Source of the DNA: a virus
IMG/VR virus record: IMGVR_UViG_3300044638_006012
Span: 1 to 35,624 of that record
DNA: 35,624 nt
Strand: one strand, 5' to 3'
The notes beneath the pieces were generated by a model, which saw only the letters and a list, made by a program, of their open reading frames with translations, was not told the DNA's origin and did not search any database. Made by a program: the position numbers and the translations under genes. Of the stretch, positions 5,639 to 31,715 are shown piece by piece. Position 1 is the first letter of the stretch. Each line of letters begins with the position of its first letter.

Positions 5639-6684
5639 ACTGAAACGAATGCCTGTGGCCTCTGTCGTAGATGGCCCCTGCACTCCCCCTCGTTCTCATG
5701 GTAGGCGCGGAAGTGGACAATCTCAGTCTTTCCGTCCCGATCCTGACGCTTAATGTGATCGCAAACGATATGAGGGACACACGCGATCTTGAGTCCGTGA
5801 GGGTGGAATCTTGACCAGCAAAGGAATAAATCCTGTGTTCCCCTCCCCTCGTAACCCGTAAAATCTGAGTGGGCTAGTGCGGCTTTAGATAGCAAAGTGC
5901 AACCTAGCCCGCACCAATCAGAAGGGACGACTGCCCCAAGGCCAATAGCAGGATAGGCGAAATCCATCCACCCACGGCGGCGATAGCCCTTGGCGTTGAG
6001 TTCAAAGACGTTGCCTGTAGGCGGGGACTTCTTGACCCATTCCCGAAGTCTTCCCATGCGCTTGCCTTCCCGCTCCCCTGTTTTCTGTGCCGCTTCAGCC
6101 TCCTCTGCGTTAGTCGGCTTTGTGATCGCCTTCAGTCGCTCCTCGCATTTCTCAAGCAGGAGTTTGAGGCGGGGCTTGAGATTCCTCTCCTCTGGGAGGA
6201 AATCCTCGGCGATCTGATGCTGGGGAGAGCCGAACCCTCCAAGGAATAATCCATTCGGGTAGGTAGCAGCTGCTATGTCGTAGTAGGGACGGCCATCGGC
6301 TTGTGGCATGGCAAGCGTCCATTCGAGAACACGCAATCCATGAGCCGGAACTATCGTGTCGCTCTCTACCACCCAGCATTGGTCGGCGCGGATCTTCCTC
6401 GCAAAGGCGAAGCCTGCCCCCTGCAAGGCGGCGATCCTAAGTTGCGCCTCCTCTTTGTAGTCCTTGGCATCATCCTTGAAGGGATGTTTTAACACGCTCA
6501 CCTTCCAGCCTTCGGGAAGCTCGCGCTTGGCAATCTCGGCGGCGGCTTCCCCCTCTTTGCTCTCATCCGTCGAGAAGATGAAATGCGCCTCGTCGTGGTG
6601 GGATGCTGCGGCGGCTATAGCACGGACGCATTGAGGCCATGCGTGGAGGTAGCCACGGGTTGCAGAAACGGTGATGGCGATCAT
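5635..6684 (-). CDS. GT-A-like glycosyltransferase (349 aa)
   Basis: The fold order fits family-2-type (GT-A) glycosyltransferases, which use a nucleotide sugar and a divalent metal. There is an N-terminal beta-strand (MIAITVSATRGYL), a strand ending in VVESDTIVP (residues ~105-113) where E-S-D would replace the usual DxD metal site, and GCTLLSKAALA (~261-271). A C-terminal block has GTQD (282-285) and a late His (H310) in VCDHI. A charged helical insertion (~165-220) splits the middle. Start ATG 6684 overlaps the upstream TAA and has GGAG seven bases upstream. Its place between structural genes suggests it modifies virion proteins, though host surface glycans or modified DNA bases are alternatives. 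Confidence 0.7.
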   Translation of the reverse strand: MIAITVSATRGYLHAWPQCVRAIAAAASHHDEAHFIFSTDESKEGEAAAEIAKRELPEGWKVSVLKHPFKDDAKDYKEEAQLRIAALQGAGFAFARKIRADQCWVVESDTIVPAHGLRVLEWTLAMPQADGRPYYDIAAATYPNGLFLGGFGSPQHQIAEDFLPEERNLKPRLKLLLEKCEERLKAITKPTNAEEAEAAQKTGEREGKRMGRLREWVKKSPPTGNVFELNAKGYRRRGWMDFAYPAIGLGAVVPSDWCGLGCTLLSKAALAHSDFTGYEGRGTQDLFLCWSRFHPHGLKIACVPHIVCDHIKRQDRDGKTEIVHFRAYHENEGECRGHLRQRPQAFVSV

Positions 6685-18800: not shown

Positions 18801-21800
18801 GCTCATCGGCAAAAGAGTTAATCTTACGGGCTGCGGCAACAAAGTTGTTTTTCAGCGCTTCGCCCTCGGATACGGGGGTTGCAGTCGCTTCCGTGGCCAC
18901 CGCTGCATCTGAAGCGGCTTTAGCCTCCTCTTCCTTCAGCCCAAGCTCTTGCCTGTAGACTTTCCTCATCTCCTCAAGCTCCTTAACTAGGGCCTCGTAT
19001 TCTTCGGCGTAGGGCCAAGCGGCGGCTTCTGGCATCTCCGCAACCTGCCGGAGGTTTTCTAGGTTGTTGCGCTGGCTGGATTTAATTCCCTCGATGGTCT
19101 CCCCAAGCTCCTCTAGTCGAGAAAGCAGGGTTGCGGGGCTAGTTACTTTTCCAAAGGCTATGTCATCCTCCCTGTCTTCAGGGCGGGAAATTAGCTCGTA
19201 GTTGATTGTGGTCTTTTCAACCATCGACTGCGCCTCTTCATCGTAAACTTTATCTATTGTGGCAAACGACGACAATCGGAGAGGCAAGCCGTTCACGCTG
19301 ATAGAGGTTACGTCTGGGGCAACCTGCCTTCCGCTTTCGGTAAGCATGAGTCGGTTGCGTGAATCCTCAAGCGCGGCTTTTATGGCATCGGCTGTCTCGG
19401 TTTTCGTTTTAAACGTCTCACCGCCGACTTCGATATTTACGCCCTTCTCTGTAACTGAGGCGGCAATAGCTTCCATTGCGGCAATAGATGGGGCAACTCG
19501 ATCAGCGCGCTCACCATCAACGCGAAGATATGTCTTTGCGTTCCGGATCTCGGTTGCTCTCCTAGCAGACTCGTCAATGTTCGCCTGCCTAGAGATTCCA
19601 AGCTCCTTGAGCCTGTTTTCAATCTCCCAGATTCTAAGGGAGGTTTTGCCTCCCAAGACTGCCTGTTGCTCTGAAAGGTTCAGGGAAACATCGTCCTCCT
19701 CTAGCTCTCTGCCGGTGACTTTGCCGGAAAGCGCCGCGTAACTTGTGCGCTGCTTGGTGACAAGCTTCTGCCAAAGCGAGGAATCAAGTGTGTCCTCCAT
19801 GCCGTATCGGTAAAGCTCAACAGGAACGCCTAGCTCTCCATGAATGTTCCCCTGGCGATACACGCGACCATCGCGCTGTTCAAGCCCTGCCGGAGTCCAA
19901 GGTACATCGAGGTGATGGGCGGCAATCATTAAGCGCTGCATATTGACGCCGGTTCCTAGCTTCTGGGTTGAACCCATGATGATGCGCACCTCTCCACTAT
20001 TCACCCTGTCAAAAAGCGCCTGCTTATCCTTGTCTGTTTTATACTTCTTGTCGGTGATGACTGCGATCTGCTCGGCGGGAACCCCCCTTGCAATTAGCTT
20101 TTCTCTGATGTCCTCGTAGATATTGAACCGGTCGTCGGTGTAGGCCTTGCTTGGGTCTTCATCCTCTTCCTCGTCCTCGTCGGTCTCTTCACTCTCATTA
20201 ACCGCCTCATCCGTATTTATCTTGGAAACCTTGTTTGGGTCTTTCTCGATGTCGAGATTAGAGGCCATCACCTCGTCGAAGATGGCTGTTTTTACGGATC
20301 GGTAGCTATCTGCAAAAATAACCTGTGTGCCGGAGTATTCCGTAGTTCGCTCATAAATACCCATGAGCTTTTCAATCATGGTATTCACCTTACTCCCTGG
20401 CTCGTCTTTGGCTTGCGGGTCAATCAGTCGGATGTCGATGGCGGCGGCGCGACTTGCCATGTAACTTTGAACCGGAACGGCCATCAGTTTAGGGTTTTCC
20501 TGCTTCTGTTTTCCTGTGAATCCCTCGTATTCCTTCAAGACTTCTCGGATATATCGCACCCACTCGGTAGCTCCTTTTGTGCGATTGATCGCAACTAGCT
20601 CCGGCGCGCCACCTTTGATGTCGGGGCGGTTTTTCACAACCATGTCGTCCCCTAGCTTGATGTCTGCGGCTTGGCGCAGGAAAGTATTCCACTCTGGAAG
20701 ATTCACGAATTTGGCAAGGCGCTCGACGTTCTTATACTCGCCATTTGGCCCCATTTCACTCTGCGTCACAACTTCAGCAAACTTGCTATGGAATTGGTCA
20801 AATAGCTCAACCTTGTATTCCTTTAGGACATTGGGGGCCACCAGGCGGATCATGTTCCAGATTTCGCCTAGCGTGTTGGTGACAGGGGTTCCCGTCATGG
20901 AGAAGATGTTTTTCCCTCCCGTCTTGGCTTGGATCTGCCTTGCCCTCATGAAGAGCGCATAAGCCCGCTTGCTCATGCTTCCGTCAATTCCCTTGGCTGT
21001 AAGGTGGGTTGTGAACGGGATTTTCTTAAACTCATGCACCTCATCCACAATCAGGGAATCAACCCCTAGCTGCTGGAAGTTGAGAAGATCCTTTTCGGTA
21101 TTCTTGCGGTCTTTTGCTTTATCAATCGCAGTCTCAAGCTTTTCAATCAGCTTAACGAGAGCCTTTACTGTCGGTGGTTTTTTTCTGTCGGCCTTGGCGT
21201 CAAACACGCTGTCGTATCCCGCTTCCTTCAGCGTGGCAAGGGCCTCGTCAATAAGGCTCTTGGATTGAGCGATTTCAACATCCGGATCGTCGGAGATTCC
21301 GCTAAAGGTGCTGTGTGCAATAACAACGGCGTCCCAATCGCCTGCCGCAATCCGCATTAGAAACTCCTTCTTTTTGGCTCCGGCCAACTCGTCCTTTCGT
21401 CCGATGAGAATGCGACTACTTGGTGCCATCTTCGCAATTTCCTTCGCGAAACCCTCCAGGGTGGCATTGTGAACGACGATCATGGGCTTTTTAGCCATTC
21501 CAAGCCGTCGCATTTCAAGAGCGATAGCTGTGCCAATGACAGTCTTCCCCCCTCCGACTCCGTGGGCAATCAGCCCGTACCCTTCCTGAATAGCCCGCCA
21601 AATTGTGTTTTTCTTGTCGGGGTAGATGCCGAAATCCTTGTTTGCCCAAGGAAGAGAGAGGAATTGGCCGTCATAAGTACGCTGAACGTGTGCGTTGACT
21701 TCCTCGTTGTAGATGTCGGTCAACTGGCTTGCGACTGCTTCATTCTCATTTGCCCATTTGACAAAGCGCTCGGTCAGCAACTTTGCCTTTTCACGGGCCG

Positions 21801-24800
21801 CTTGGGTTGCTGGCTCGTTGCGCTTTCCTCCGTCTTTTTTGGGGAAGTTGATGACAATCGGGTTGAAGTTCAGGAGTGAATCCATGACGTGTTCAATCCC
21901 TACGTCGTTGGTTTCAAAGTCCTTGTAAGCGACGCCAGATTTCCAAGTGCGCTTGTCTTTGACCATTGCCCAATCGCTACTTCCTGCCGCCGTTTTGTAG
22001 ATGAACTTAAAGCCCTGAACTCCAAGCGATTCTAGGAACTGGGTATAAACCTCGGAAGGAATCCAGGTTGCTCCAACCTTAAATTTAATATCAGCGATCC
22101 CTACGCGCTGCGGTTGAACCCCCTCTAGGAGGTCAACATTGCGCTGATAAGCTGGCCCTGAAGCCCTTGCGATCTGTAGCTTTTTGCGAACATTGCCGGA
22201 GATGTATTGCTCCCGCGAGTAAAGCTGCCCTGTTGACGGGTCTTGGAATGCAATTCCCCTTTCAAGAAGGCCCTTTTCAACCTGCTCTTGGGTTTTGTCA
22301 ATGAGTCCAGCAATGAACTGGGTATCAATCCGATTGCGCCACCCAAGGGAAATGCCGTAAGCATCCTCTATTGTGTCGGCTTTGGTTGGCTCGGATCGCG
22401 GCTCAAGTACCCGCTTGGAGAAAACATCGGCCTTCTTGTAGGCTTTCTTGGTCTTGCCCTTAACGATGTCGGTGATGTTTTGCAGGGAGGTTGCCTTTCT
22501 TTCCACCTCTAGCTCTGCGCCAAGGAGACGGAAAATGTCGGGATCGCCAGCAAAGAGGGATTTATTGAAGGAATCGTGGATGTAGGTTGACGTTCCCAGG
22601 GCTGAATTTGTGATCTTTCCTGTTCTGGTTTTCTTTGTAACCCGAATTTTGATAAACCTATCGTAAGCGGCATTTAGGGCCGCTCGGTTTTCCTCAATCT
22701 CTGCCTCTGTTGCTGTGTCTGAAAGCTCAAGGTCGTATTGCTTGTTGAGAGCGTCCCTAAGAGTAATGAACCCATCCACCCTTTGCGCGTTTTCGGGGGC
22801 ATTTAGCGCTTCATCCGGCGCCTCTTGGCCTTGGAAGAAGTATTTCCCGTCCTTTTTGATGACGTTCCCGAATTTAAGTGTGCCGGTAGCGCCGGTTCTT
22901 ACTGGGCCGGTCTCGTCCACCTTCCCCATGATGGACTTTGGAAGGGATGCAAGTTGCCTCATCATGGCAACGGAAGGCGGGTTGTTCAAATCCCCGTGTA
23001 CGGTCATTTCCTTTTCATCCCCATACATTGACCCGTCATCGTCTAGGAGTCCGAAAATGTTACTTGGGTTGTTTGCGAAGTATTCATTGATACGGATCGG
23101 CTCGCCCTTCTGTGTTTTTGAGTCTCCGAGGTTCACCCATGACTGCCCATAAGGGAACGGCTTCCCGTCCTTCTTCCGCAAAATGATAACGTCCGTAACG
23201 ACATCGGTTCCCGCGTTGTCCTTAAAAGCATCGTTTGGAAGCCTGTAGGCAGCAACTAAGTCGGCGCGCTCGGCAAGCCACTTGCGGATTTCGGGGTTTC
23301 CCTTGTCCATCGTAAAGGCGCTTGTGATAAACGCCATGACGCCACCTGGCTTTAGCTTTGTGAGGGTCTTCCCAAAGAAGTAATCATGCAGGTTCTTGGT
23401 AGGCCCGCCCATTGCCTCAAGCGCTGGGTCATTTACTGGGACGTTTGCAAAAGGAACATTGGAGATAGCAAGGTCAATAGAGTTGTCGGCTATGTCTGCC
23501 GTCTGGAATCCCGTGTTTTGAATGTCGGCCTCTGGGTAGAGGGCCTTGAGGATTTTGGAGGTGTATCGGTCGAGTTCTACGCCGAAAAGCCTACTCTTAT
23601 CCGCAACCTCGGAAGGCATAAGGCCAAAGAAGTGGCCGATTCCTGCACCTGGCTCTAGGACATTGCCACCTTCAAACCCTAGCGCCCTTACCGCGTCCCA
23701 CATTCCGGCGACGATTTCGGCGCTTGTGTAGTGGGCGTTGATCGTACTGCGCTTGGCTGCGTTGTATTCAGCGTCAGAGAGAAGCGACTTAATCTCATCG
23801 TGGGCCTCCCCCCATTGATTCTTCCAATTCTCAAGAGATTGGGCCTTGCTGCGGTTGCGTTCGGCGGTTGCGGCATAGTAGGCATTTTCGCCGTATCCCT
23901 CGTATCGCGTTGCCTCGGCGCGAAGGTTCTCGATTTCACCCCTGGCGACTTGTTCGGCCTTGTCGTCGTCAAAGGATTGGGACAAAGCGCCCCAGCCTGA
24001 GAACTTTACAAGCTCCTGCTTTTCTTCTGGTGTGGCAAGTCGCCCCTCAGACTCAAGGGCCTTAATGATGCGTATGGCGGCTAGGTTTGCCTTCAGCTTG
24101 CCCGTAACCCCCTTGGGGGCTAGCCTCTGATCCCGATTTAGGGAGATATTCCGCTCTGCGCTACCTTCTTCAGGTCTCTCAATGGCTACTCCTGTTCCTG
24201 CCTGAGAAATTGTTCGGCCTTTTCTTGCAGGTCGTCCGGCATCTGCTCCTCGTCCTGATCCTCCCACCCCTTCGGATACGGGAACAACTGCTGCATCGCC
24301 TCCACCTCGTCCATCTGCCCCTTCAATAGAAGTAACTGGATCGTTTTGCTGTCCAGCATCAGAAGGAAGCTCTGCTTCTGATTTAGCGCTTTCAAAATCT
24401 CGCTCGGCTGATTGCTGTCCAGCCATGAACGAAAACAACTCTCCCATTCCTCCGATTTGCGTAGGTTCTTCCGTTCCTGCGGGTTCAGGTCTCCGCGCAT
24501 CAGTCTCGCCTCTTCGGGTGTTGGGTTGTTCATTGTTCTGGGCCTCTGTATTTACGTTCGTCTCATCGTTCTGGCCTGTCAAGCTTTCGGGAGTCGTTTC
24601 CGTCCCCCCTACAGAGAACAAGTCGGCGGTCGAATCGTCTTGGAATCTACTGCGTCGGGCCGCTGCCGCGTCTTGACTTTGGGCGCCTGCGGTCGTAACA
24701 TTTGATCGTATGAGTGAAAAGCCCCTATCGGTTGCCGAACGCAAATCCTTGGTTGAGAAAGCCGCCAAGTTGGAAGGCGTTTCCATTGAAGACATTCCTG

Positions 24801-27800
24801 ATGGGCTTTCCGATAACGCGCTTCGGGTGCTGGCTGGTAAGTCACCAACTCCATCCGAAAGGTATCTAGCCTCTGAGGACATGGAAGAGGTTAAGGAATA
24901 CCTCGACTCTGCGCCCTGATTGTCTTTCTTGTAGGCGTATTTGTAAAGTTGGCGCATCCGGCCCTTTTTGCGGCGCAACACCTTCTGCATTAACGTAACC
25001 TGAGAATCCTTCATTGGATTCTTCTTGTCGCTTAACCGGCGCTCAATCTCACGAACAACGTCGTAGAGGTCGTGCGCCTCCTGTTTCACTTGAAGCATGG
25101 TGGGCTGAAGCATAAGGACTTCTTTGACCACGGAATCGCCGTCGCGAACAAACTTCATCGCAACGTCCTTGTAATCCCATTCAGGCATATCAAACCTGTT
25201 TGTGAAGTCGATTGCGCCGTTAGGGGAGTAAAGCTTATATCCGGCATTGAACATCGACTCAACGAAGCGCATGGCGTCTTTCACTACCCCTTCAGGATTG
25301 CGCTTGTCGCTTACTACAGTCGCCCGCAAGAGGTCGGACGGGATTGCTGCTTTTCTGCCAATCTTTGAAAGAGCCGTGTCCAGTTTTTTGACGGCGTATT
25401 TTGAGTATTGCGACTGGAACTTAACGCCTGAACCCCTGGCGGCTGCATCAATGTCGCGAAGGAATTTTGGGGCTTGGGATTGCGCCTGATTGTGTATTTC
25501 GGTAATGGCGGCTTTTAACTCTTCATCGTCTTTGAATGTGGCTTTTGCAGCGACGGCATTGCCATCAACTTCACCCTCACTCTCGACTTTGCCAACGATT
25601 CCCCTTCGCCGGTTGTTATTCTCGATTGCGATCTTGATTAAGTCGCTAACGCTCAAGGTCTCTCCAAAAATATCGGCCTCATCTGTTTGCTGATTTACGG
25701 CCAAGTTGATGTCTCGGAGTAGTGCCGCGAAATTCTCTTGGGTTACTGAAGCCGAAAGCTTTCCACCTGTCCCTGTTTTGACGTTATCCAGTAGGGCTTT
25801 TGCAATGGCCTGAACATCGGCGCCTGCTGCGCCCCTCCCGCCTGCCCCTTGGGTGAGCGCGTCGTTTTCCTGTTGGGCCGCAATCTTGAGAAGGGCTTGC
25901 TTTAGGGTGAGGGGGTTCTTGGGTCTTTCCAACTCGGAATTAACTCTTTCAAGGGCCGCCGCTAAGGAATCAGCGAGTTCAGGAGAGTTTTTCTGCCGGA
26001 GTTTCACGCCAAGTTCCGCGGTGCCGCCAATAAGCGCCCGCATGGTACTCCTCGCGGGATTGCTGGCTGTGTCGCCGCGAAGGTCGAAATATACCTCATT
26101 CAGCTTGTCGCTCTTTAAGCCGGACGCAATCACTAACTGTTGAACGTATTGCTGGCTCTGTACGGGGTCGCTGGCAGTAGCCTCCATGAGGTTCCTATCC
26201 AGCCCTAGTGACTTGTCGTTGATGAGCTTCCTTACAATTTGTTGCGCGTCGGAAGGATCGGTGTCCATCGTGAGCGTTGAAAGCGTACTTGGGGGGATCT
26301 TGATATTTGCGTCGATCTTTGCGCGCTGGGTAGTTCCCTGGATCTTCCCTTGTGAAGGGTTGAGCTTGTCCACCATCTGCTGATAGGCGCGGGCCTCTTC
26401 AGGGTTGCGAAGGTCGTAGTCACCCAAAAAGCGATAAACTCTGTGACCCTCTGGGACATTCTGAAGGCCGAACACTCCCGCGCTCTGCCGGAGTGAGTCT
26501 GAAAGCCTTGCCTGATCCTCTTGCGAGGAAAGGTTGATTCCCATTTCGCGGCCATTGCCGCCTGCTGTCTGGAATACGGTTTTTGTGTTTCCTTCCGCAT
26601 CCGTGAAAGTGACGCGGGCAATCTGTGGGGGGCCTCCTGCGGCGCTCGGGCTGTTGTTAATGATTTCATCAGGAATTAGCGCTCCTGGCATTGCAATAGA
26701 GTTGACCTTTCCCTGCTCGGTTGCGTCGGTGTCGTAGGGGCGGGTATTTTCGCCCCCGTAATTTGGGTTCTTGGGGAAGAGCGCTGCCGGCGATCCGTCG
26801 CCAGAAGAAACTGGGGTGTGGCTCGTTTGGACAACGCCAGCCGGAAGAGTGACGTAACGCGAGGGGAGTTGCTCGTTATTGGCGGCAGTCACGATTGCGG
26901 GCCTCCCCTGATTCACCCCCTCCATCGTGGAGGCGTCAATCTGCGCGGCCTGCTCTTTGGCGTTGCCTTGGCGGGCCTTGGCTCGCTCTTGGGCGGCTTT
27001 CCTCTCCTCCTGCTCGGCTTTCAGGCGGTTGTTCTCCTGCCGCAACCGGACTGTTTCAGTTACGGACTCCGCGCCTGTGGTGGTTGCCGTTTCTGGCTGT
27101 TTTGCGGTGCTTTCGGGCTGTTTTTGACGATTTTCTGTCGATTCTTGCGTTTCGACGGCCTTGGCTTCGGGTTTAATACCCATAAGGGCCTGAATATCGG
27201 CATAGCGGGTTTCCATGGAGGAAACCATTTCGTCCAGCCCTGCGTCGTAATTTTTCGTGTTTCCGGCAACCTTCTTCAGAGCATCAAGCGCGCTCCGGAG
27301 GTATTTCATCATGGCCTCAAAAAAACCGTTTGCGTCGGCGCTCTCTGTCACCCTGCCTTCAACTCGCATCTGGGCAAGTTGACGGGCAAACTCATTCATG
27401 AAGTTGAAAGCGTTCTCTGGGCTGTTGGGGTCGGTCTGGTTAGAAAGGCGATCCAAGATCGAAACCGCATTGCCTGAAGCTTCATTTTCCCCGTCACCAA
27501 TAGGCTGTCTGCTCTCTTCCCCGTAATAGTTGTTGTAAGCGCCGATAACCGCCTTAGATAACTCGATTCCGACAGGAGTCTTGCCGATATTGGCAAGATT
27601 GCCTCGCATATCTTCAAACCTCGATCTGGTCTCTTCGTGAACGAAGCTACTAAAGGTTCCCTTGCCCTCTTCGGTTTTTGCGTTCCATTGGTCGCGCAAA
27701 TGGGAGAACCAGCCAAAGTGTAGCCCCTCCTCTCCAAACATTGAATGAAGGTACTCGGAGGCATTTCCCTCTGTAGTTTTGCCCATTCCGTTACTGGCGC

Positions 27801-30800
27801 TGGCGTTACGGGCCATCACAGCGGGGTTGTGCATGAAAATGATCCTTCCGTCATCCGTGAAGGTGACGAGCGCCCCTGAATTGCCGGCCTTGTCTTTTGG
27901 AACCTCTTCGACCTCTAGCCCTACTTCTTTTCCAGCCTCGCGAAAGCCCGATGCAATTCCTCTTGCTTCTCTAGCGATAACCGTAGGAACGGCGGGGTTG
28001 AGGCGGGTAGCGTTGATCTTCCGGCGCTGCTCGGATTGGGAATCACCGCTGGGAGCGAATGGGGAGGCGGCTCCTGTGCTATCTCCTTGGTTAGCTCCAT
28101 CAGTTCCCACCGGAATCTCGCTTCCTTGTCCAATTCCTCCTGTTGTTCCTTGGTTACTACCTGGAGCATTCCCGATAGGTTGTTCACCCTCTCCTGTAGC
28201 TCCTGCCGTTGCAGGGCTTCCGTCAGTCGTTCCGGTTGTTCGTGCATTTTGGGCCTCCTGTTGGCTGTAAATCTCCTTCAGTCTTGCCGTTTCGTCTAGT
28301 GGGATAAGGTTTTCGCTGATGGGGGCGTTGTTTCCCATCCATGAAATCGCCTCGTCCGTGATAACCATCTGCCCCTGTTCCATACGGACAAGAGGAGGTA
28401 GGGTTTGCGTAACCGGCGCACCTGTCGCTGGGTCTGGAGTCGTCACATTGCGCGGCCTGAGTAACATTTCGCGCTCGCTGCCGGTCAAAAGATTCTGATC
28501 CAGCCCGCTAGCAATCTTGACTAGGCCGGTTGCCATTGAGCGATTTTCCGCGTTCGGCATTGCAAGGATCTCTTGTGCGGCCTGAACGGAAAGAATGGAG
28601 CGCTGCGAAGCCTCCTCTGCCATTCCCTGCATCTTATTCAGGAAATCAGCCCTTTCATTGATTGCTGATCCTAGCTGCTCAAGGGCAATTCCTTGAGCCT
28701 CGTAGTCAGTACCCTTAAAGAAACCCCCATCTACGCCTGCCTCGCTTGCTTTCTGGCGCGCCTCGGCCACTTTTGCATCCATGGCTGAAAGCTGGGTCTG
28801 CATATCTGCAATGGCCTTCCCTGAAAAAACTGGGGCGATTTGGCGAGCAAAGGCAATTTGTTCGGGCCGGACTGCCGGACTGCCTTCAGGGAGTTGACTC
28901 GTAACTGCCTCCGCTGCGCGCTGGTCTGCGGCGTATTGCTCCGGCTGCGGAACTCCTTGTTGGGCATCAATGGTTGGGAGGGAACGCCATTGGTTGCCAA
29001 GCTCCGAAATGCGGGCATTTGTTCCGCCGCTCTGGTCGTAAGAGGCAATCGCCTTATCAACCTGCGCGGAATACTCTGTTGCAGCCTTGCGCTGGCTTCG
29101 GATATTTGCCGCATTCATGCCGCCTGCCATAAGGAGACCCGTAAATCCTGCTATAGCTCCAGCTTCGGCGGCTTCTCCAAAGATTTTACCCCAATCGTCT
29201 TTTGTTAGTCCGGCTAGCTTGTCATAAACTCCCTGTGCTGCGTTTTGGAAGAACTCTTGACCGCCCTCTTCAACAAATTGCGCGCCGGTATTGACTAGGA
29301 ATTTTTTAACTGAACCAGGAACGACTTTTTCAAGCCGTGCAAACATATTTCCGATTGGTATAGCTTCGGTTGCGTCAAGTCCTGCCTTTACTGCGGCTCG
29401 GGCATAGGCTTTTGCGCCCGTTGCCCCCATTTCCAAGGCTTCCCTATAGCCTGTTCCAAATCCTGAAAGAGCGCCGATGGATGCAATCGCTGTTTTAGTT
29501 GAGCCTCCCGCCATGTACGCAAAGGAAGATCCAGCGCCGCGCGCTAGTTGTGCCGTCACTGTGTCGGCCTTATCTCCCATCCACTCTGCTGTTTGCTCTC
29601 TTGCTCCCTTTGCGAACTGGGCAAGAGTTGTATCCTCAAGCTTCTGGCCGGTAGCCGCTGCCTGTATGGTGGCAAGGGTCTCTACGAAACCAAGGCCAAC
29701 ATCTTGAAGTCCAGCATACGGCGCAACGGCGACGGCACGAATGCGTCCCCCAAATTCATCCTTGAGTGCTTCTTTGAGCGCTTCTCCGTAAGATTGCGGC
29801 TTGCCTCCGCCTAATCCCTTGATGAATTGGGCCTGCTCGCCCCCTGCTTCTGATTTCTTGGCGTCGTACTCGGCAAGCGCGTTTTCCTTTTGATTCTGGA
29901 ACTCTTCAACGAGGATCTTTTTCTCTTCGGCGGTTTTGCTTCCCCAGTCTTCGGGAATCTCCATCTTTTTCCGCATGATTTCATTTCGCTCGTCGATGAT
30001 CTGCCGCTGATACGGCATAATCCCGCTTTTCAGGTCGCTCCTCCTCTGCGAAAGGCTACCGGCTTGGCCTTGTGGCGTCGCGCCAGCCGGTGATGCAGGC
30101 TGTGATCCGCCTGTCTGCGGGGTGGCGGCGGCAGTCTGCGTTAAATCCCTGTTGTCCTTAAAGGAAAGCTGCATATCGGGGCCTACCGATACGTCAATGG
30201 AGCGCGTCCCCTGCTTTGGGGTCGTTGATTGCGCGGGGGAATTGATGGCCTGAACCGCCGCGTTCCTAACTTGAAGCATGGCGTTGGCGTTTGCGCCTGC
30301 AACCTGCATCTGCTTGGCAAGATCCTCTAGCCTTGACCGGCTTGCGCTCGCCTCTTCGCTGTTAGTGAAAATCCCCTTTTTTAGGCGCTCGCTCTCGGCG
30401 GTATATTGGCGCTGTATTTCGTCAAATACGCCCTTTTTCTCCATGAATGACTTATCCATGCCCGCCAGGTCTTCCCTAGTCGGTGCATCGGCGGCAAATG
30501 ATCGCGCCGCTGCCTCTGAAGCGGTCTGCATGACCATCCGCTGTTGCTCATGATTGCTTTTATCAAGCCCAACCTCCTGCCGCTTCTTGGCAATGGCGGA
30601 AATCATAGGATCGGCGTCGATCTCTTCAGGCGCTTTGCCTGCTTTAATGAGCATTTCGCGGCGTTTTGCCTCTGCTGCCTCGTAACCTGAAAGCTGATTG
30701 GTGGCTTTTAGAATGTCGCCTTCCGTTTTTACACGCTTACTCTCGGCATCTGCCGCAATTTGCCGCTGCGCGGCCTCCTCGCGCTGTTTTTCAAGCGCGG

Positions 30801-31584
30801 CAAGCTGTGCTTGCGTCTTGTCGGCTTGGGATTTTGCTACAACGGCATCCGCTGTTGGCTTGGCCCCCATATTGAAGAACCAGCTACCTCCTTCGGTCTT
30901 CCCCGCGCGCTCGTTTTGCTGGTCGAGTTGCGTATTTTGCTCGGTAATTGCTTTTGAAAGGTCTTCCGACTCGGCTTTTGATGAAGCTGCGGCAAGGGAA
31001 GCCTTCGCCTCGATGTCGCTTATTCCCTCGTTTGCTGATTTCCGCATGGCATCCTCGCCATGCTTAGCAACCTTCACCGCCGCATCCCTGATTGCTGGGT
31101 CGATATTTTGGCTATCCTTCAGGTCGTAGGCGCTGGCAATGGGTGACCAAGGCTGATATTTGTTCTGCTTGTAGAGCATTCCAGGGTCATTGTCGGCTCC
31201 TCCAATGGGAGCGCCGGCATCCGGATCGCTCATTTTCACTACTCCCGTCTTATCTACCTGAGTCCGAACGGGTCGCCCTTCGGGAGTGTAGTCAACCTTG
31301 TCACTTTCATGAAAAACAGGATTGCCGGCCTCGTCTGCATCCGGCATCACGCGGCCAAACTCATCTGTGTGAAACTTCTGACCGGTGGCCCTCATCCGTC
31401 GCTCTAGCTCATGGCTTGCGCTAGACTTGGCAAACCTCTCATCCTCCCTCCTGCGGCGCTCATCTAGCGCTGACGCTTTGGAATCAAGTCCAGACATTGC
31501 AACTGCCCGATTCTGGTCGTAGTCAAGCCCCCCAAGGTCTGCGGCAAAGGTGGGCTTATTATCTGGGTTGAGAGGATCAGCCAT
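12898..31584 (-). CDS. Giant polyvalent protein: methylase-helicase-JAB multidomain (6228 aa)
   Basis: One unbroken frame of 18.7 kb runs from ATG 31584 (A-rich leader, no SD) to TAA. It belongs by architecture to the phage polyvalent proteins (P1 DarB-like), several of which are packaged in the virion and enter the cell with DNA to counter host defences. Visible parts, by residue: coiled coil ~190-310, hydrophobic Gly/Ala-rich ~600-830, EExxH segment ~1277-1289, DdrB/ParB-like ~1575-1800, RelA/SpoT-like ~2010-2220, N6-methylase ~2524-2806, SF2 helicase ~3310-3990, JAB ~4416-4552, degenerate JAB ~4611-4712, phage-common domain ~4732-5243, HTH ~5481-5533, LPD38-like region ~5610-6050. Low-complexity linkers separate them, and two of these carry other genes. 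Position between terminase and portal supports a packaged, injected product. Confidence 0.9.
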   Translation of the reverse strand: MADPLNPDNKPTFAADLGGLDYDQNRAVAMSGLDSKASALDERRRREDERFAKSSASHELERRMRATGQKFHTDEFGRVMPDADEAGNPVFHESDKVDYTPEGRPVRTQVDKTGVVKMSDPDAGAPIGGADNDPGMLYKQNKYQPWSPIASAYDLKDSQNIDPAIRDAAVKVAKHGEDAMRKSANEGISDIEAKASLAAASSKAESEDLSKAITEQNTQLDQQNERAGKTEGGSWFFNMGAKPTADAVVAKSQADKTQAQLAALEKQREEAAQRQIAADAESKRVKTEGDILKATNQLSGYEAAEAKRREMLIKAGKAPEEIDADPMISAIAKKRQEVGLDKSNHEQQRMVMQTASEAAARSFAADAPTREDLAGMDKSFMEKKGVFDEIQRQYTAESERLKKGIFTNSEEASASRSRLEDLAKQMQVAGANANAMLQVRNAAVQAINSPAQSTTPKQGTRSIDVSVGPDMQLSFKDNRDLTQTAAATPQTGGSQPASPAGATPQGQAGSLSQRRSDLKSGIMPYQRQIIDERNEIMRKKMEIPEDWGSKTAEEKKILVEEFQNQKENALAEYDAKKSEAGGEQAQFIKGLGGGKPQSYGEALKEALKDEFGGRIRAVAVAPYAGLQDVGLGFVETLATIQAAATGQKLEDTTLAQFAKGAREQTAEWMGDKADTVTAQLARGAGSSFAYMAGGSTKTAIASIGALSGFGTGYREALEMGATGAKAYARAAVKAGLDATEAIPIGNMFARLEKVVPGSVKKFLVNTGAQFVEEGGQEFFQNAAQGVYDKLAGLTKDDWGKIFGEAAEAGAIAGFTGLLMAGGMNAANIRSQRKAATEYSAQVDKAIASYDQSGGTNARISELGNQWRSLPTIDAQQGVPQPEQYAADQRAAEAVTSQLPEGSPAVRPEQIAFARQIAPVFSGKAIADMQTQLSAMDAKVAEARQKASEAGVDGGFFKGTDYEAQGIALEQLGSAINERADFLNKMQGMAEEASQRSILSVQAAQEILAMPNAENRSMATGLVKIASGLDQNLLTGSEREMLLRPRNVTTPDPATGAPVTQTLPPLVRMEQGQMVITDEAISWMGNNAPISENLIPLDETARLKEIYSQQEAQNARTTGTTDGSPATAGATGEGEQPIGNAPGSNQGTTGGIGQGSEIPVGTDGANQGDSTGAASPFAPSGDSQSEQRRKINATRLNPAVPTVIAREARGIASGFREAGKEVGLEVEEVPKDKAGNSGALVTFTDDGRIIFMHNPAVMARNASASNGMGKTTEGNASEYLHSMFGEEGLHFGWFSHLRDQWNAKTEEGKGTFSSFVHEETRSRFEDMRGNLANIGKTPVGIELSKAVIGAYNNYYGEESRQPIGDGENEASGNAVSILDRLSNQTDPNSPENAFNFMNEFARQLAQMRVEGRVTESADANGFFEAMMKYLRSALDALKKVAGNTKNYDAGLDEMVSSMETRYADIQALMGIKPEAKAVETQESTENRQKQPESTAKQPETATTTGAESVTETVRLRQENNRLKAEQEERKAAQERAKARQGNAKEQAAQIDASTMEGVNQGRPAIVTAANNEQLPSRYVTLPAGVVQTSHTPVSSGDGSPAALFPKNPNYGGENTRPYDTDATEQGKVNSIAMPGALIPDEIINNSPSAAGGPPQIARVTFTDAEGNTKTVFQTAGGNGREMGINLSSQEDQARLSDSLRQSAGVFGLQNVPEGHRVYRFLGDYDLRNPEEARAYQQMVDKLNPSQGKIQGTTQRAKIDANIKIPPSTLSTLTMDTDPSDAQQIVRKLINDKSLGLDRNLMEATASDPVQSQQYVQQLVIASGLKSDKLNEVYFDLRGDTASNPARSTMRALIGGTAELGVKLRQKNSPELADSLAAALERVNSELERPKNPLTLKQALLKIAAQQENDALTQGAGGRGAAGADVQAIAKALLDNVKTGTGGKLSASVTQENFAALLRDINLAVNQQTDEADIFGETLSVSDLIKIAIENNNRRRGIVGKVESEGEVDGNAVAAKATFKDDEELKAAITEIHNQAQSQAPKFLRDIDAAARGSGVKFQSQYSKYAVKKLDTALSKIGRKAAIPSDLLRATVVSDKRNPEGVVKDAMRFVESMFNAGYKLYSPNGAIDFTNRFDMPEWDYKDVAMKFVRDGDSVVKEVLMLQPTMLQVKQEAHDLYDVVREIERRLSDKKNPMKDSQVTLMQKVLRRKKGRMRQLYKYAYKKDNQGAESRYSLTSSMSSEARYLSDGVGDLPASTRSALSESPSGMSSMETPSNLAAFSTKDLRSATDRGFSLIRSNVTTAGAQSQDAAAARRSRFQDDSTADLFSVGGTETTPESLTGQNDETNVNTEAQNNEQPNTRRGETDARRPEPAGTEEPTQIGGMGELFSFMAGQQSAERDFESAKSEAELPSDAGQQNDPVTSIEGADGRGGGDAAVVPVSEGVGGSGRGADAGRPARKGRTISQAGTGVAIERPEEGSAERNISLNRDQRLAPKGVTGKLKANLAAIRIIKALESEGRLATPEEKQELVKFSGWGALSQSFDDDKAEQVARGEIENLRAEATRYEGYGENAYYAATAERNRSKAQSLENWKNQWGEAHDEIKSLLSDAEYNAAKRSTINAHYTSAEIVAGMWDAVRALGFEGGNVLEPGAGIGHFFGLMPSEVADKSRLFGVELDRYTSKILKALYPEADIQNTGFQTADIADNSIDLAISNVPFANVPVNDPALEAMGGPTKNLHDYFFGKTLTKLKPGGVMAFITSAFTMDKGNPEIRKWLAERADLVAAYRLPNDAFKDNAGTDVVTDVIILRKKDGKPFPYGQSWVNLGDSKTQKGEPIRINEYFANNPSNIFGLLDDDGSMYGDEKEMTVHGDLNNPPSVAMMRQLASLPKSIMGKVDETGPVRTGATGTLKFGNVIKKDGKYFFQGQEAPDEALNAPENAQRVDGFITLRDALNKQYDLELSDTATEAEIEENRAALNAAYDRFIKIRVTKKTRTGKITNSALGTSTYIHDSFNKSLFAGDPDIFRLLGAELEVERKATSLQNITDIVKGKTKKAYKKADVFSKRVLEPRSEPTKADTIEDAYGISLGWRNRIDTQFIAGLIDKTQEQVEKGLLERGIAFQDPSTGQLYSREQYISGNVRKKLQIARASGPAYQRNVDLLEGVQPQRVGIADIKFKVGATWIPSEVYTQFLESLGVQGFKFIYKTAAGSSDWAMVKDKRTWKSGVAYKDFETNDVGIEHVMDSLLNFNPIVINFPKKDGGKRNEPATQAAREKAKLLTERFVKWANENEAVASQLTDIYNEEVNAHVQRTYDGQFLSLPWANKDFGIYPDKKNTIWRAIQEGYGLIAHGVGGGKTVIGTAIALEMRRLGMAKKPMIVVHNATLEGFAKEIAKMAPSSRILIGRKDELAGAKKKEFLMRIAAGDWDAVVIAHSTFSGISDDPDVEIAQSKSLIDEALATLKEAGYDSVFDAKADRKKPPTVKALVKLIEKLETAIDKAKDRKNTEKDLLNFQQLGVDSLIVDEVHEFKKIPFTTHLTAKGIDGSMSKRAYALFMRARQIQAKTGGKNIFSMTGTPVTNTLGEIWNMIRLVAPNVLKEYKVELFDQFHSKFAEVVTQSEMGPNGEYKNVERLAKFVNLPEWNTFLRQAADIKLGDDMVVKNRPDIKGGAPELVAINRTKGATEWVRYIREVLKEYEGFTGKQKQENPKLMAVPVQSYMASRAAAIDIRLIDPQAKDEPGSKVNTMIEKLMGIYERTTEYSGTQVIFADSYRSVKTAIFDEVMASNLDIEKDPNKVSKINTDEAVNESEETDEDEEEDEDPSKAYTDDRFNIYEDIREKLIARGVPAEQIAVITDKKYKTDKDKQALFDRVNSGEVRIIMGSTQKLGTGVNMQRLMIAAHHLDVPWTPAGLEQRDGRVYRQGNIHGELGVPVELYRYGMEDTLDSSLWQKLVTKQRTSYAALSGKVTGRELEEDDVSLNLSEQQAVLGGKTSLRIWEIENRLKELGISRQANIDESARRATEIRNAKTYLRVDGERADRVAPSIAAMEAIAASVTEKGVNIEVGGETFKTKTETADAIKAALEDSRNRLMLTESGRQVAPDVTSISVNGLPLRLSSFATIDKVYDEEAQSMVEKTTINYELISRPEDREDDIAFGKVTSPATLLSRLEELGETIEGIKSSQRNNLENLRQVAEMPEAAAWPYAEEYEALVKELEEMRKVYRQELGLKEEEAKAASDAAVATEATATPVSEGEALKNNFVAAARKINSFADEQRTADNPDYQAALEAAKEAREALADYNIGKREGDADYVSAVAARAPRMQEGKISVAEGEIQAYLDFANVPKEKREKAGRAFKQAASASTTPYQRREVPASTGVDRDELRQARAEQAAAYRGLLKGDTEAVRNAIQNGIPLSKLISAYAESKGIPFSIQGAIINSPADLAAHTLAHRTPYFESLKVVVLDNSNQVIHSEIVSIGSLNETIAHPREILRAVERGKQAAAQIGREIKGWILSHNHPSGDPQPSEADRRLTRRINEAATFMEVPLIDHIITNGESYFSFSEAGFQGSGIKPAGKLKPKLQVVPKISEMATGAMADWEAVPASETPTIDKAERVRQIRATLQTADPGMIHVLNLNTRLGIISVDRHPLDATPTDIYKKSLTHGTYGIALSLPETAPDGSRLAEGEKNSDAWRKFMREIQVAGMLYQVPVMDAVLGDFSYREAGLLEEPAQYGQVPAVAARAPRMQGDGFYSQLQRTIDQKMPNKASVAQIRAIIDPVKGSGVKPDEIKWSNLEGFLEGKESVTKQEVLEYLENEGAVKFEERTRGANEIERVAKEYGFTAEYDPNSEEYTFENKDGEEVEYGELPFKLRYDLDQISDGGNANKYSQYTLPGGENYREVVLTMPFKSQIDPVASYKQLLDGSFDVIFKDGEVGNYKTLEEARIDGRGERDLAGVGEYRSSHFPNIPNYVAHMRLDERQDASGKDGLFIEEIQSDRHQQGREKGYKENIPQENFITWAEKRGLNKEQAEQEWKTKSESFQQWRRDQDDALADVSKTPDAPFRKDWSVQMFKRALRDAIEGDKEWIGWTKGETQAGRYDLSKQVEKLRYFPPNSKMGQKFGTVLKAYGRNGDELINKVVSPEELPDVIGKEAAQRLLDPYAMRLDGHHELTGEELKVGGEGMKGFYDQILPKEIGKYVKKWGAKVEEGEVVTQPAYAEDPSGFPDKTASIWKVAITPEMRESIKNEGQAAFARSSYFGGLDSRAAQQVEDAFNDLDADSMLEQQAKAETQAPGQRTTGSPRLALGALNTQIMGVDEYRERIATTETQKQWQAEASAMLKSDYEGTRKRLIQAGMLGGSLTPAETKAAMMIVARETAAAATDPAKRAEVAKLIYAYRETGREEARSLSARRDMFMTPKERHREFLAKMIFSPGKADQAAIEKIESPAEREAAITAAVDRRMSEIEKALKAMGVTFDDILKGEVQISLIGSRVVENTLRGFSDKEQQALRMMQAGQKYENIAKTLGFSVSQVKAMRLKAVASIKKRHFDKVRKGLTVDDLKQDMNAVYARSPRQISEEAAEAEFARIIDALGFGENAGTGKKSGKKPFTLEDPIEVIKIARLVAATDKGALDMVHEYWMASLLSGITTHVANIAGNTANAALDLTFQRGMETLVNSMVGDKDSPRAGEFKHLISGLKGSMSAAFRAGIRAYDAEQSMVDYDLLGHELSINPSGFIPGASAGTAIKGKAGRVIRVPLRALAFMDDFSKTMVARMEVGAQAYRIGKANGYNGNELSEFIASEVETIGSQSWERAVGRATILAFQEKLRSLDEGGNLIEGGAVALNKGLSNYKPGKFFVPFINTVYNIFRTGVRKTPVGSASMLYKGARHGFYQIRNGKLNPHPYVASEFVRDSAEQVMAWALLSMMWGVVPGDDDDEKKSILITGSEPFQRGMTGLRDLSQRSGTPPYHIRIGDTLFNYGRIEPIATVLGTTADLVKAGKMARDNQSGSDILGYISSRILGQITDKTYGRGMSDIAGFIQDPKSMANWAATFASTFVPNILRQPMRAFDPYVRETSIETSPKNLPAGIAQRFMQSAAPMASVNQPRIDLYGNPVKKEGSAASRLLLPTQASPAPKVQPADRLFSNWNKNNPSEAYAPARASRRYFDPVTGEVKFMDDKTFQRFAEKAGKTFAATSRAAITPSMAKNPTEDDKDRVKKLLADARKQARKEVIMTSPRRERSLQEILFGSK
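13430..14760 (-). other. C-terminal LPD38-like region of the giant protein
   Basis: Residues ~5610-6050. The opening MASLLSGITTHVANIAGN is the kind of motif found at the start of the polyvalent-protein domain LPD38, common at the C-terminus of giant phage proteins. It is followed by Gly-rich amphipathic helices and FFVPFINTVYNIFRTG. The function of the family is unknown; packaging or membrane contact during injection has been considered plausible. The name is from memory. Confidence 0.5.
14985..15144 (-). other. Sigma-region-4/LuxR-like helix-turn-helix in the giant protein
   Basis: Residues ~5481-5533 begin GFSDKEQQALRMMQAGQKYE and continue NIAKTLGFSVSQVKAMRLKA. The pattern S-x-x-E-x-x-x-L-x(6-7)-G-x(3)-IA-x(2)-L-x-S-x(2)-V-K is that of sigma70 region 4 and LuxR/GerE helix-turn-helix domains, which contact DNA through the second helix. 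It sits between helical regions of unknown role. It may tether the protein to DNA or act on host transcription. Confidence 0.65.
15855..17390 (-). other. Phage-common domain of unknown function in the giant protein
   Basis: Residues ~4732-5243. It opens FYSQLQRTIDQKMPNKAS, continues with IKWSNLEGFLEGK and VTKQEVLEYLE, then YVAHMRLDERQDASGK, LFIEEIQSDRHQQGREKGY, WIGWTKGETQAGRYDLSKQV and GMKGFYDQILPKEIGKYVKK. The same series recurs in many phage and mobile-element proteins. No enzymatic function is established to my knowledge. The conserved EIQSD, TTG/TKGE and GMKGFYD blocks look like an active-site set. Confidence 0.6.
17391..17423. repeat. 33-bp dispersed direct repeat, copy 1
   Basis: It matches 18654-18686 at 31 of 33 bases. 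In the giant frame it encodes the linker AVAARAPRMQ (residues ~4721-4731), immediately before the FYSQLQR domain. Confidence 0.85.
17445..17755 (-). other. Second, degenerate JAB/RadC-like domain of the giant protein
   Basis: Residues ~4611-4712. VLNLNTRLGIISVDRHPL and WRKFMREIQVAGMLYQVPVMDAVLGDFSYREAGLL align in order with the end of the preceding JAB domain (LTRRINEAATFMEVPLIDHI, then YFSFSEAGF). The HxHPSG-x-S-x2-D metal motif is absent. It looks like a tandem duplicate that has lost its catalytic site and may now only bind. Confidence 0.55.
17928..18340 (-). other. RadC-type JAB/MPN domain of the giant protein
   Basis: Residues ~4416-4552. The JAMM metal motif is complete: H4501-N-H4503-P-S-G, then S4511 and D4514, followed by IDHIIT typical of RadC. 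JAB domains are zinc hydrolases, often isopeptidases; RadC-type members are frequent in mobile elements. In polyvalent proteins this domain may process conjugates or the protein itself. Confidence 0.8.
18654..18686. repeat. 33-bp dispersed direct repeat, copy 2
   Basis: It matches 17391-17423 at 31 of 33 bases, while surrounding sequence does not match. In the giant frame it encodes AVAARAPRMQ (residues ~4300-4310). The two copies bracket the segment holding the JAB pair. Confidence 0.85.
19615..21660 (-). other. SF2/SNF2-type helicase domain of the giant protein
   Basis: Residues ~3310-3990. Walker A is AHGVGGGKT (K3347), motif II is DEVH (D3514), motif III is MTGTP, and motif VI is EQRDGRVYRQGN (3902-3913). 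All ATPase residues are present. An acidic insertion (ESEETDEDEEEDEDPS) separates the two RecA-like lobes. With the methylase just upstream this is the arrangement seen in DarB-like proteins. Confidence 0.9.
23160..24015 (-). other. N6-adenine DNA methylase domain of the giant protein
   Basis: Residues ~2524-2806. The entry FSGWGALSQSF precedes the SAM-binding motif I VLEPGAGIGHFFG (E2644-G2656) and motif IV NVPF (2709-2712), where Val replaces the first Pro of the NPPY/F catalytic loop. This variant is common in methylase-helicase phage proteins. Expected role: protecting incoming phage DNA from restriction. Confidence 0.85.
24186..24533 (-). CDS. Overprinted gene in +1 frame within giant-gene linker (115 aa)
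   Basis: The ATG at 24533 has AGAGG nine bases upstream and the frame ends in TAG. The product is unlike a shadow frame: balanced charge, good helices (PEEARLMRGDLNPQERKNL; FLLMLDSKTIQLLLLKGQMD), Trp residues in helical context (SEEWESCFRSWL), and an acidic coiled C-terminus. The giant frame over the same bases (residues ~2351-2466) is low-complexity Gly/Glu/Pro/Ala/Thr, as expected if this frame is the constrained one. It lies between the RelA/SpoT-like and methylase domains. No family recognised. Expression is unproven. Confidence 0.55.
   Translation of the reverse strand: MNNPTPEEARLMRGDLNPQERKNLRKSEEWESCFRSWLDSNQPSEILKALNQKQSFLLMLDSKTIQLLLLKGQMDEVEAMQQLFPYPKGWEDQDEEQMPDDLQEKAEQFLRQEQE
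24673..24701 (+). promoter_or_regulatory. Sigma70-like promoter for the antisense gene at 24710
   Basis: TTGACT (24673-24678), a 17-base spacer and TAACAT (24696-24701) match consensus at five and four of six positions. The ATG follows the -10 by eight bases, so the mRNA would be nearly leaderless. It lies inside the giant coding region on the opposite strand. Confidence 0.45.
24710..24919 (+). CDS. Antisense small gene within giant-gene linker (69 aa)
   Basis: The product reads as a compact helical protein (MSEKPLSVAERKSLVEKAAK, then GVSIEDIPDGLSDNALRVLA, then SERYLASEDMEEVKEYLD) with balanced charge and no shadow-like bias. The giant protein over the same bases (residues ~2222-2292) is a Ser/Ala/Thr-rich linker. 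A promoter-like element lies just upstream and there is no SD, so leaderless translation would be needed. Antisense transcription here could also reduce giant-gene mRNA. No family recognised. The case rests on protein quality plus promoter match. Confidence 0.5.
   Translation: MSEKPLSVAERKSLVEKAAKLEGVSIEDIPDGLSDNALRVLAGKSPTPSERYLASEDMEEVKEYLDSAP
24925..25557 (-). other. RelA/SpoT-like nucleotidyltransferase domain of the giant protein
   Basis: Residues ~2010-2220. FQSQYSKYAVKKLDTALSKI precedes DLLRATVV (D2084), an RFDMPEWDYKDVAMKF strand region, EVLMLQPTM (E2155) and EAHDLYDVVRE (H2171, Y2174). This order matches (p)ppGpp synthetase domains, whose catalytic Asp (in D-x3-R) and Glu (in E-h-Q) are both represented, with the downstream H-x2-Y. 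The likely fold is the Rel synthetase fold; the product (alarmone, or a nucleotide or tRNA modification) cannot be told from sequence. Confidence 0.6.
26185..26862 (-). other. DdrB/ParB-like domain of the giant protein
   Basis: Residues ~1575-1800. The core motif GGNGREMGI (G1675-I1683) fits the GNGR motif of DdrB-like ParB-superfamily domains found in polyvalent proteins, followed by the helical RFLGDYDLRNPEEARAYQQM. ParB-superfamily domains bind or cut nucleic acids or bind nucleotides; which applies here is unknown. Confidence 0.6.
27325..27942 (-). other. Zincin-like segment of the giant protein
   Basis: Residues ~1215-1420. A domain with INATRLNPAVPTVIAREARG, a beta hairpin (GRIIFMHNPAVM) and the helix EYLHSMFGEEGLHFGWF. 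HExxH is absent, but E1285-E1286-x-x-H1289 aligns with the E-E-x-x-H helix of some phage zincin-like domains. Metalloprotease activity is uncertain. Confidence 0.4.
27921..28247 (-). CDS. Overprinted gene in +1 frame with perfect SD (108 aa)
   Basis: ATG 28247 is preceded by AGGAGG with a six-base spacer, better than most annotated starts here. The product has an N-terminal coiled coil (TEALQRQELQERVNNLSGML, then VTKEQQEELDKEARFRWELM, residues ~9-52), a Pro-rich centre and a C-terminal helix (LEKQEELHRAFARLEKK), ending in TAG. The giant frame over these bases (residues ~1113-1221) is a Gly/Thr/Asn/Gln-rich linker rich in GGA codons, as expected if this frame sets the codon choice. It lies just before the zincin-like segment. 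No family recognised; expression is unproven. Confidence 0.6.
   Translation of the reverse strand: MHEQPERLTEALQRQELQERVNNLSGMLQVVTKEQQEELDKEARFRWELMELTKEIAQEPPPHSLPAVIPNPSSAGRSTLPASTPPFLRLSLEKQEELHRAFARLEKK
28254..28259 (-). promoter_or_regulatory. Shine-Dalgarno site for the overprinted gene at 28247
   Basis: AGGAGG followed by CCCAAA and ATG on the minus strand. It is internal to the giant gene, where no start is needed for that protein. Confidence 0.6.
29095..29787 (-). other. Hydrophobic Gly/Ala-rich region of the giant protein
   Basis: Residues ~600-830. Alternating Gly/Ala-rich amphipathic helices (SSFAYMAGGSTKTAIASIGA, GEAAEAGAIAGFTGLLMAGG) and an EEGGQEFFQNA motif. Similar segments occur in injected phage proteins and may insert in the host membrane during DNA entry. 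Inference from composition. Confidence 0.45.
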
Positions 31585-31586
31585 AT

Positions 31587-31715
31587 TTATTTTTTTGGTT
31601 TCTTTTTACCCTTCGTGGCTGGGATTTTCTTAACTGAAGATGGGGTGGCCGGCATTGGCGTTTCGATTGGGGCCGCAAATGCGGCGGCTCCTGAAGTGGA
31701 TGGCGCTTCGCTCAT
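31587..31715 (-). CDS. Small basic-tailed protein (42 aa)
   Basis: ATG 31715 overlaps the preceding TGA (ATGA) and the gene ends in TAA two bases before the giant ATG, filling an otherwise empty 128-base gap. The product starts MSEAPSTS, is Ala/Pro-rich, and ends in a Lys-rich tail (VKKIPATKGKKKPKK). Such short basic proteins may bind DNA or act as a translational coupler. Four-base overlaps on its side match the rest of the operon. Function unknown. Confidence 0.55.
   Translation of the reverse strand: MSEAPSTSGAAAFAAPIETPMPATPSSVKKIPATKGKKKPKK

Follow-up and report, generated by a model that had tools for sequence, protein, structure and literature searches.

Does a giant phage gene carry a second gene in another of its reading frames? 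The question is raised by a locus in IMG/VR virus record IMGVR_UViG_3300044638_006012, where an open reading frame (ORF) of 108 codons lies wholly inside a much longer gene; the stretch of DNA analysed (positions 1 to 35,624 of that record, 35,624 nucleotides) is called the window here. ORFs that are wholly nested in a longer gene are usually dropped by standard gene finders, with the consequence that real proteins are missed. The original prediction held that this ORF encodes a separate protein made from the giant mRNA, and it rested in large part on the perfect Shine-Dalgarno (SD) sequence in front of the start codon.

The giant host gene

The host gene (12898-31584, minus strand) encodes a DarB-like polyvalent protein of 6228 aa, which combines a methyltransferase-SNF2/helicase dyad, a RadC/JAB domain and a match to an internal virion protein family at its C-terminal end. 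Its methyltransferase-helicase core matches phrog_10089, the DarB-like antirestriction family, with E=0, and the fusion of an N6-methyltransferase with an SNF2/SF2 helicase by which a DarB-like protein is recognised is present (phrog_10089, Pfam SNF2/Helicase_C). The SF2/SNF2 helicase region, which extends from the ResIII to the Helicase_C matches, covers residues ~3333-3912 (19849-21588), the RadC-like JAB domain match residues ~4425-4550 (17935-18312) and the match to phrog_6651, the internal virion protein family, residues ~5922-6052 (13429-13821), all on the minus strand. DarB-like relatives with 30-34% identity are found in phages of Vibrio, Pseudomonas, Erwinia, Klebsiella, Burkholderia and others, and the giant is one of the polyvalent proteins as Iyer et al. 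(PMC5512222) define them. As the gene for the portal protein is close by (8920-11103, minus), the giant gene can be placed in the head/packaging region; the protein is probably carried in the virion, which is an inference. A possible zincin-like metallopeptidase was noticed, by eye only, 3' of the nested ORF, where the motif HSMFGEEGLHFG / HTMVSEEIEHAG is common to the window giant (residues ~1280-1295) and the giant of a second phage, L016 (residues 1080-1092).

The nested frame and the expectation from chance

The nested ORF, termed N1, runs from ATG to TAG in the +1 frame relative to the giant gene (27921-28247, minus strand) and overlaps giant residues ~1113-1222. Its coordinates, strand, frame and length of 108 aa had been given correctly, as had the nature of the giant frame at this place, which is a hydrophilic interdomain linker rich in Gly, Thr, Asn and Gln. 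The hexamer AGGAGG, a Shine-Dalgarno-like motif read as Gln-Glu-Ala in the giant frame, does lie six bases 5' of the ATG (28254-28259, minus), and most starts do lack such a motif, with only two of ten checked gene starts in the window having one. From stop to stop the +1 frame comprises 118 codons, which leaves about ten open codons 5' of the ATG. The product, with peptides such as LTEALQR and VNNLSGMLQVVTK, is predicted to form a long helix at residues 4-57 and another at 86-107 (pLDDT 73.7, pTM 0.38, a model that is confident only in part), and its heptad a/d pattern is above average (0.60 vs 0.33 overall), in keeping with the coiled coil that had been proposed.

The simplest alternative is a chance ORF, in which the codon usage of a linker of Gly, Thr, Asn and Gln gives rise incidentally to the length of N1, its helical composition and its SD-like motif, and no protein is made. 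The window taken by itself lends this some support. The giant gene contains six +1 ATG-ORFs of at least 100 aa, compared with a mean of 3.9 in synonymous shuffles of the gene, the longest +1 ORF reaches at least 108 aa in 97% of such shuffles (P=0.97), and the probability that at least one long +1 ORF has a strong SD is 0.165. AGGAGG occurs 19 times where 18.2 occurrences are expected. With the amino acids of the giant held fixed, the probability that the +1 frame is open at N1 is 0.21, and that of an ATG together with AGGAGG at this place is 0.14. The length of N1 and its SD are therefore within chance expectation for this giant gene, and neither proves anything. Four further long +1 ORFs (26232-26669, 28731-29114, 27396-27764 and 14607-14939, all minus) score low for coding and do not turn up among the windows with the highest +1 conservation in the frame-0 scan described below; they look like chance ORFs and can be used as internal negative controls. 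The reference databases contain no homologue of N1. On the other side, helix-forming residues make up 0.52 of the N1 product against a synonymous expectation of 0.41±0.04 (P 0.004), and its codon score lies at the 99th percentile of +1 windows. N1 was at first read as a chance ORF on the strength of the chance statistics and the missing homologues, a reading that was overturned once a search with the upstream flank had led to a second phage. An antisense ORF over the same bases (27779-28270, plus strand) was rejected as a chance ORF; stops are present in all antisense frames of the second phage.

Frame-specific constraint in a second phage

The phage contig IMGVR_UViG_3300032239_001093 (L016) is independent of the window and shows 62% identity to it in part of the upstream flank, with 50% identity to giant residues 482-1110 and 30% to residues 1115-1499. 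A host gene for an overprinted frame should itself be a coding gene, and this is the case, since the giant frame is open and alignable through the linker and conserved on either side. The linker of L016 contains a +1 ORF of 143 aa (L016:2723-3154) which aligns along N1 with 48% identity, compared with 30% for frame 0 over the same alignment columns. Like N1, it is a whole ORF in another frame within a longer coding gene, which is what an overprinted gene has to be in the first place. The +1 alignment has a score of 158, as against 37.5±9.5 after synonymous randomisation of the linkers of both giants, and none of 3000 randomisations reached 158.

The position of the changes is more telling than the score, as the z-scores in this comparison may partly reflect residual shared ancestry, and more weight is therefore given to the contrasts in phase and in pN/pS. 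In an ungapped block of 37 codons within N1, giant positions 1, 2 and 3 have.51,.22 and.22 substitutions per codon, respectively, whereas the values are.35,.27 and.64 in the upstream flank and.47,.41 and.68 in the downstream flank. The wobble position in the N1 block is thus shifted to the +1 frame. Among the changed codons of this block, 11 are synonymous and 13 nonsynonymous when read in +1, as opposed to 2 and 21 in frame 0. Linker wobble bases that are so unusually conserved could also be fixed by a nucleic-acid element, i.e. an RNA structure or a packaging or recombination signal, without any protein being involved. Such an element would not be expected to leave changes with +1 codon periodicity, mostly synonymous or conservative in the +1 frame, and the start region is less structured than average; this explanation can practically be set aside.

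The same conclusion is reached from pN/pS, which in N1 is 0.52 in the +1 frame compared with 1.13±0.20 in the controls (minimum 0.79), while frame 0 in the N1 region has 1.58 compared with 0.46±0.12 (maximum 0.75). The 93 control windows overlap and are not independent, and the codon alignment was built on the +1 product, which favours +1. A scan of the alignable giant that was registered on frame 0, and hence has no bias to +1, agrees nonetheless: the N1 linker ranks first among 217 windows, with z 6.5 on a background of mean 0.65 and sd 1.4. Purifying selection on the N1 frame thus goes beyond that imposed by the host frame. No comparable contrast is present between window and L016 in the +2 frame, which has stops in both, or in any antisense frame, where L016 has stops. 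Frame-0 similarity in the N1 linker is in turn above that implied by +1 alone (z 7-9), which fits true dual coding.

A chance ORF fails to explain the conservation of giant-frame wobble positions in L016 together with a pN/pS of 0.52 in +1, and it has become very improbable. The original prediction would have been refuted by a related phage with stops in the +1 frame and a conserved giant frame. In L016 the +1 ORF is open and better conserved than the giant frame, and the constraint per frame in this homologous linker strongly supports selected +1 coding and with it a separate protein, for which there is no expression evidence.

The evidence for selection on N1 comes from one genome pair only. 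The C-terminal half is less well conserved, and the lengths differ (108 vs 143 aa). N1 was not found in the records L012 to L015, at least at profile sensitivity, a repeat of the scan with alignments gave L016 alone, and searches of viral contigs with the N1 protein and with the downstream flank gave no relative. The giant of L016 also contains an extra module of ~245 aa (residues ~665-911), which falls precisely at the junction of the conserved upstream region with the N1 linker. This position marks the junction as a place where modules are exchanged.

A second nested gene and a third candidate

The original prediction described a single nested gene. This holds for N1, but a second and better supported one had been missed. 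With L015 and L014, the frame-0 scan has its maximum over giant residues 2346-2463 (z 8.8 for L015 and 7.3 for L014), precisely at a +1 ORF of 115 aa within the linker that precedes the methyltransferase (24186-24533, minus; giant residues ~2351-2466). This gene, N2, has the top codon score among the six long +1 ORFs of the giant. Homologues are found at L013:3755-4165, L014:13614-14024 and L015:11770-12162 with 46-51% identity to the window copy, and N2 is better supported than N1 as it is seen in four phages. W, C and F residues and the motifs SWL and FPYP..WED are invariant among the copies; Trp/Cys/Phe/Pro motifs are kept over 115-136 codons and the indels are whole codons, which is further evidence against a nucleic-acid element. 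All six pairs have a pN/pS of 0.42-0.57 in +1 and of 0.94-1.67 in frame 0; in the three pairs that include the window, the only ones covered by controls, the values lie beyond every control window. AlphaFold2 with the four sequences predicts a compact helical fold (pLDDT 85.9, pTM 0.79), for which a fold search in viral and PDB libraries gave no match, with no E below 2.8. When compared directly, N1 and N2 are unrelated to each other. With two independent loci within one gene, an artefact is very unlikely.

A further +1 ORF, the third candidate for a nested gene, is ~68 aa long and has ...IxPPGLQS at its end; it was observed in L012 to L015, in the linker that follows their zincin-like region (L013:638-841; giant nucleotides ~4598-4798 in L014, ~4625-4828 in L015 and ~4868-5077 in L012). 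Its +1 pN/pS is 0.48-0.83, the contrast to frame 0 is clear in some pairs only, and it was not seen in the window. An all-against-all comparison of alternative frames was swamped by trivially conserved DNA and is uninformative alone.

The spread of these ORFs is patchy, with N1 in the window and L016, N2 in the window, L013, L014 and L015, and the third candidate in L012 to L015; the nested genes seem to travel with their linker modules. A patchy distribution is also what a homing-type hidden element would produce, that is, an inserted selfish ORF whose shifted frame happened to be open and came to be used as linker. The extra module just 5' of N1 in L016 could be taken in the same sense, and the published case of this type, the ShiLan element, likewise lies within a methylase gene. 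That element carries an HNH endonuclease, whereas neither N1 nor N2 has a nuclease match in Pfam, PHROGs or PDB. In addition, N2 is located in the same linker of four divergent phages, which suggests vertical retention, and no empty site with sharp borders was seen. There is thus only a slim chance that the nested genes are elements of this kind.

Initiation of translation

The SD in front of N1 lends the original argument no weight: it is expected by chance, and it is missing in L016 even though ORF and ATG are kept. N2 has no SD in any phage. In contrast, the ATG is kept in every copy of N1 and N2, and the region from -30 to +23 is predicted to fold less strongly around the nested ATGs than around 96-100% of all ATGs that these genes contain. 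Compared with their own linkers, four of the six nested ATGs are in the least structured 1-4%, with L015 at 6% and L016 at 18%. A/C-rich leaders are common to N1, N2 and several ordinary genes of the window. The start of the giant gene itself (31582-31606, minus) has an A-rich leader without SD, AAAAGAAACCAAAAAAATAAAT followed by ATG, which suggests that phage and host rely little on the SD.

Programmed +1 frameshifting would also account for a conserved frame, as a truncated giant of ~1110 aa would then carry N1 as an alternative C-terminus and no free protein would exist. The roughly ten open +1 codons before the ATG of N1 in the window, the +1 frame that is likewise open upstream of N2, and the lack of an SD at all nested genes except N1 in the window are compatible with this. 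However, a +1 stop is present in L016 three codons 5' of the conserved ATG, which makes a frameshift less likely; the conserved ATGs of N1 and N2 lie in unstructured mRNA, and no shared slippery site was seen in a search that was not systematic. Frameshifting is therefore regarded as improbable. The likeliest route is that ribosomes initiate internally and independently with no SD required, an inference made without expression data; the SD of N1 would help, if at all, in the window phage alone.

Possible functions of the nested products

No homologue of the N1 or N2 product was found in Pfam, PHROGs or PDB, or in phages or plasmids searched by both DNA and protein, and searches of genome contigs gave no relative. 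A membrane segment is absent from the nested products, with a maximum 19-residue hydropathy of 0.16-1.23 (0.16 for N1 and 0.92 for N2 of the window), and a role as lysis protein is therefore unlikely. Comparison of the P1 head proteins Ulx and DdrA with N1 and N2 gave no similarity, with an hhalign probability below 1% in all four comparisons. By analogy with P1, the nested products might be co-expressed helpers of the giant virion protein that act in its assembly, loadability or capsid delivery. In the absence of any homologue of known function this remains a conjecture, and a tentative one.

A model of the locus

Taken together, N1 (27921-28247) is very likely a genuine overprinted, dual-coding gene, with the giant mRNA read in two frames. 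Both frames are open, the +1 frame is under purifying selection, the giant frame is relaxed, the ATG is conserved and the start is unstructured. From frame 0 the DarB-like polyvalent protein would obtain a hydrophilic interdomain linker, and from the +1 frame a separate, helical and coiled-coil-like protein of ~108 aa (143 aa in L016) would be made; N2 is a further +1 gene, unrelated to N1, within a different linker of this giant gene. At the internal ATG, which lies in mRNA with little structure, ribosomes would initiate independently, an SD being as dispensable as at most starts here, and the products may help the giant in the way Ulx and DdrB help DarB of P1, as analogues and not as homologues. 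With so little constraint on their own sequence, the linkers can bear overprinting.

A broader version of this model is conceivable, though we would not yet favour it: giant polyvalent genes may systematically host unrelated, exchangeable +1 genes in their linkers, of which N1, N2 and the third candidate of ~68 aa would be examples, initiated independently of an SD, made in proportion to the giant and aiding assembly, packaging or injection. N1 and N2, each more strongly selected than the giant frame over its bases, point to low-complexity linkers in giant phage proteins as a reservoir of genes that annotation has missed. The locus is also a rare system in which the frame of the long gene is relaxed and the "hidden" frame is constrained.

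Comparison with known systems

The giant resembles DarB of P1 and the methyltransferase-SNF2 polyvalent proteins (PMC5512222, phrog_10089), as its core aligns with ~30-34% identity to DarB-like phage proteins and it is encoded near a portal gene. By contrast, it is far larger (6228 aa) than P1 DarB (~250 kDa) and has out-of-frame genes in its linkers; the word "overlap" is absent from the text of Iyer et al. 2017 (PMC5512222). Among the head proteins of P1 that are listed with DarB, Ulx aids the localisation of DarB and DdrB its addition to the capsid (PMC9024508). The nested products are near in size to Ulx (17 kDa) and DdrA (13 kDa), but Ulx, DdrA and DdrB are separate genes, and the resemblance is one of context only.

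Classical overprinted viral genes (PMC8227390), among them the embedded lysis genes of ssRNA phages (PMC7693330), encode a novel protein in an alternative frame of a gene that already exists and are often lineage-specific. N1 and N2 share the alternative-frame principle with them, but they occur in a tailed dsDNA phage, where no pressure towards compactness is obvious, and, unlike the embedded lysis genes, lack a membrane-spanning segment. The literature searched contained no case of several +1 genes, unrelated to one another, within the linkers of a single giant phage gene.

The nearest published analogue found is the ShiLan element, an out-of-frame HNH endonuclease in an uninterrupted phage DNA-methylase gene, where the stretch concerned is thought to be a tolerated loop (PMC11855218). 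Like this element, N1 and N2 are protein-coding ORFs in another frame of a phage gene; unlike them, it is a mobile nuclease and an insertion with clear borders, whereas N1 and N2 are two unrelated genes in two linkers of one giant gene. Judged from sequence data, the overprinted gene would be of a known kind, in a setting for which the literature searched gave no precedent.
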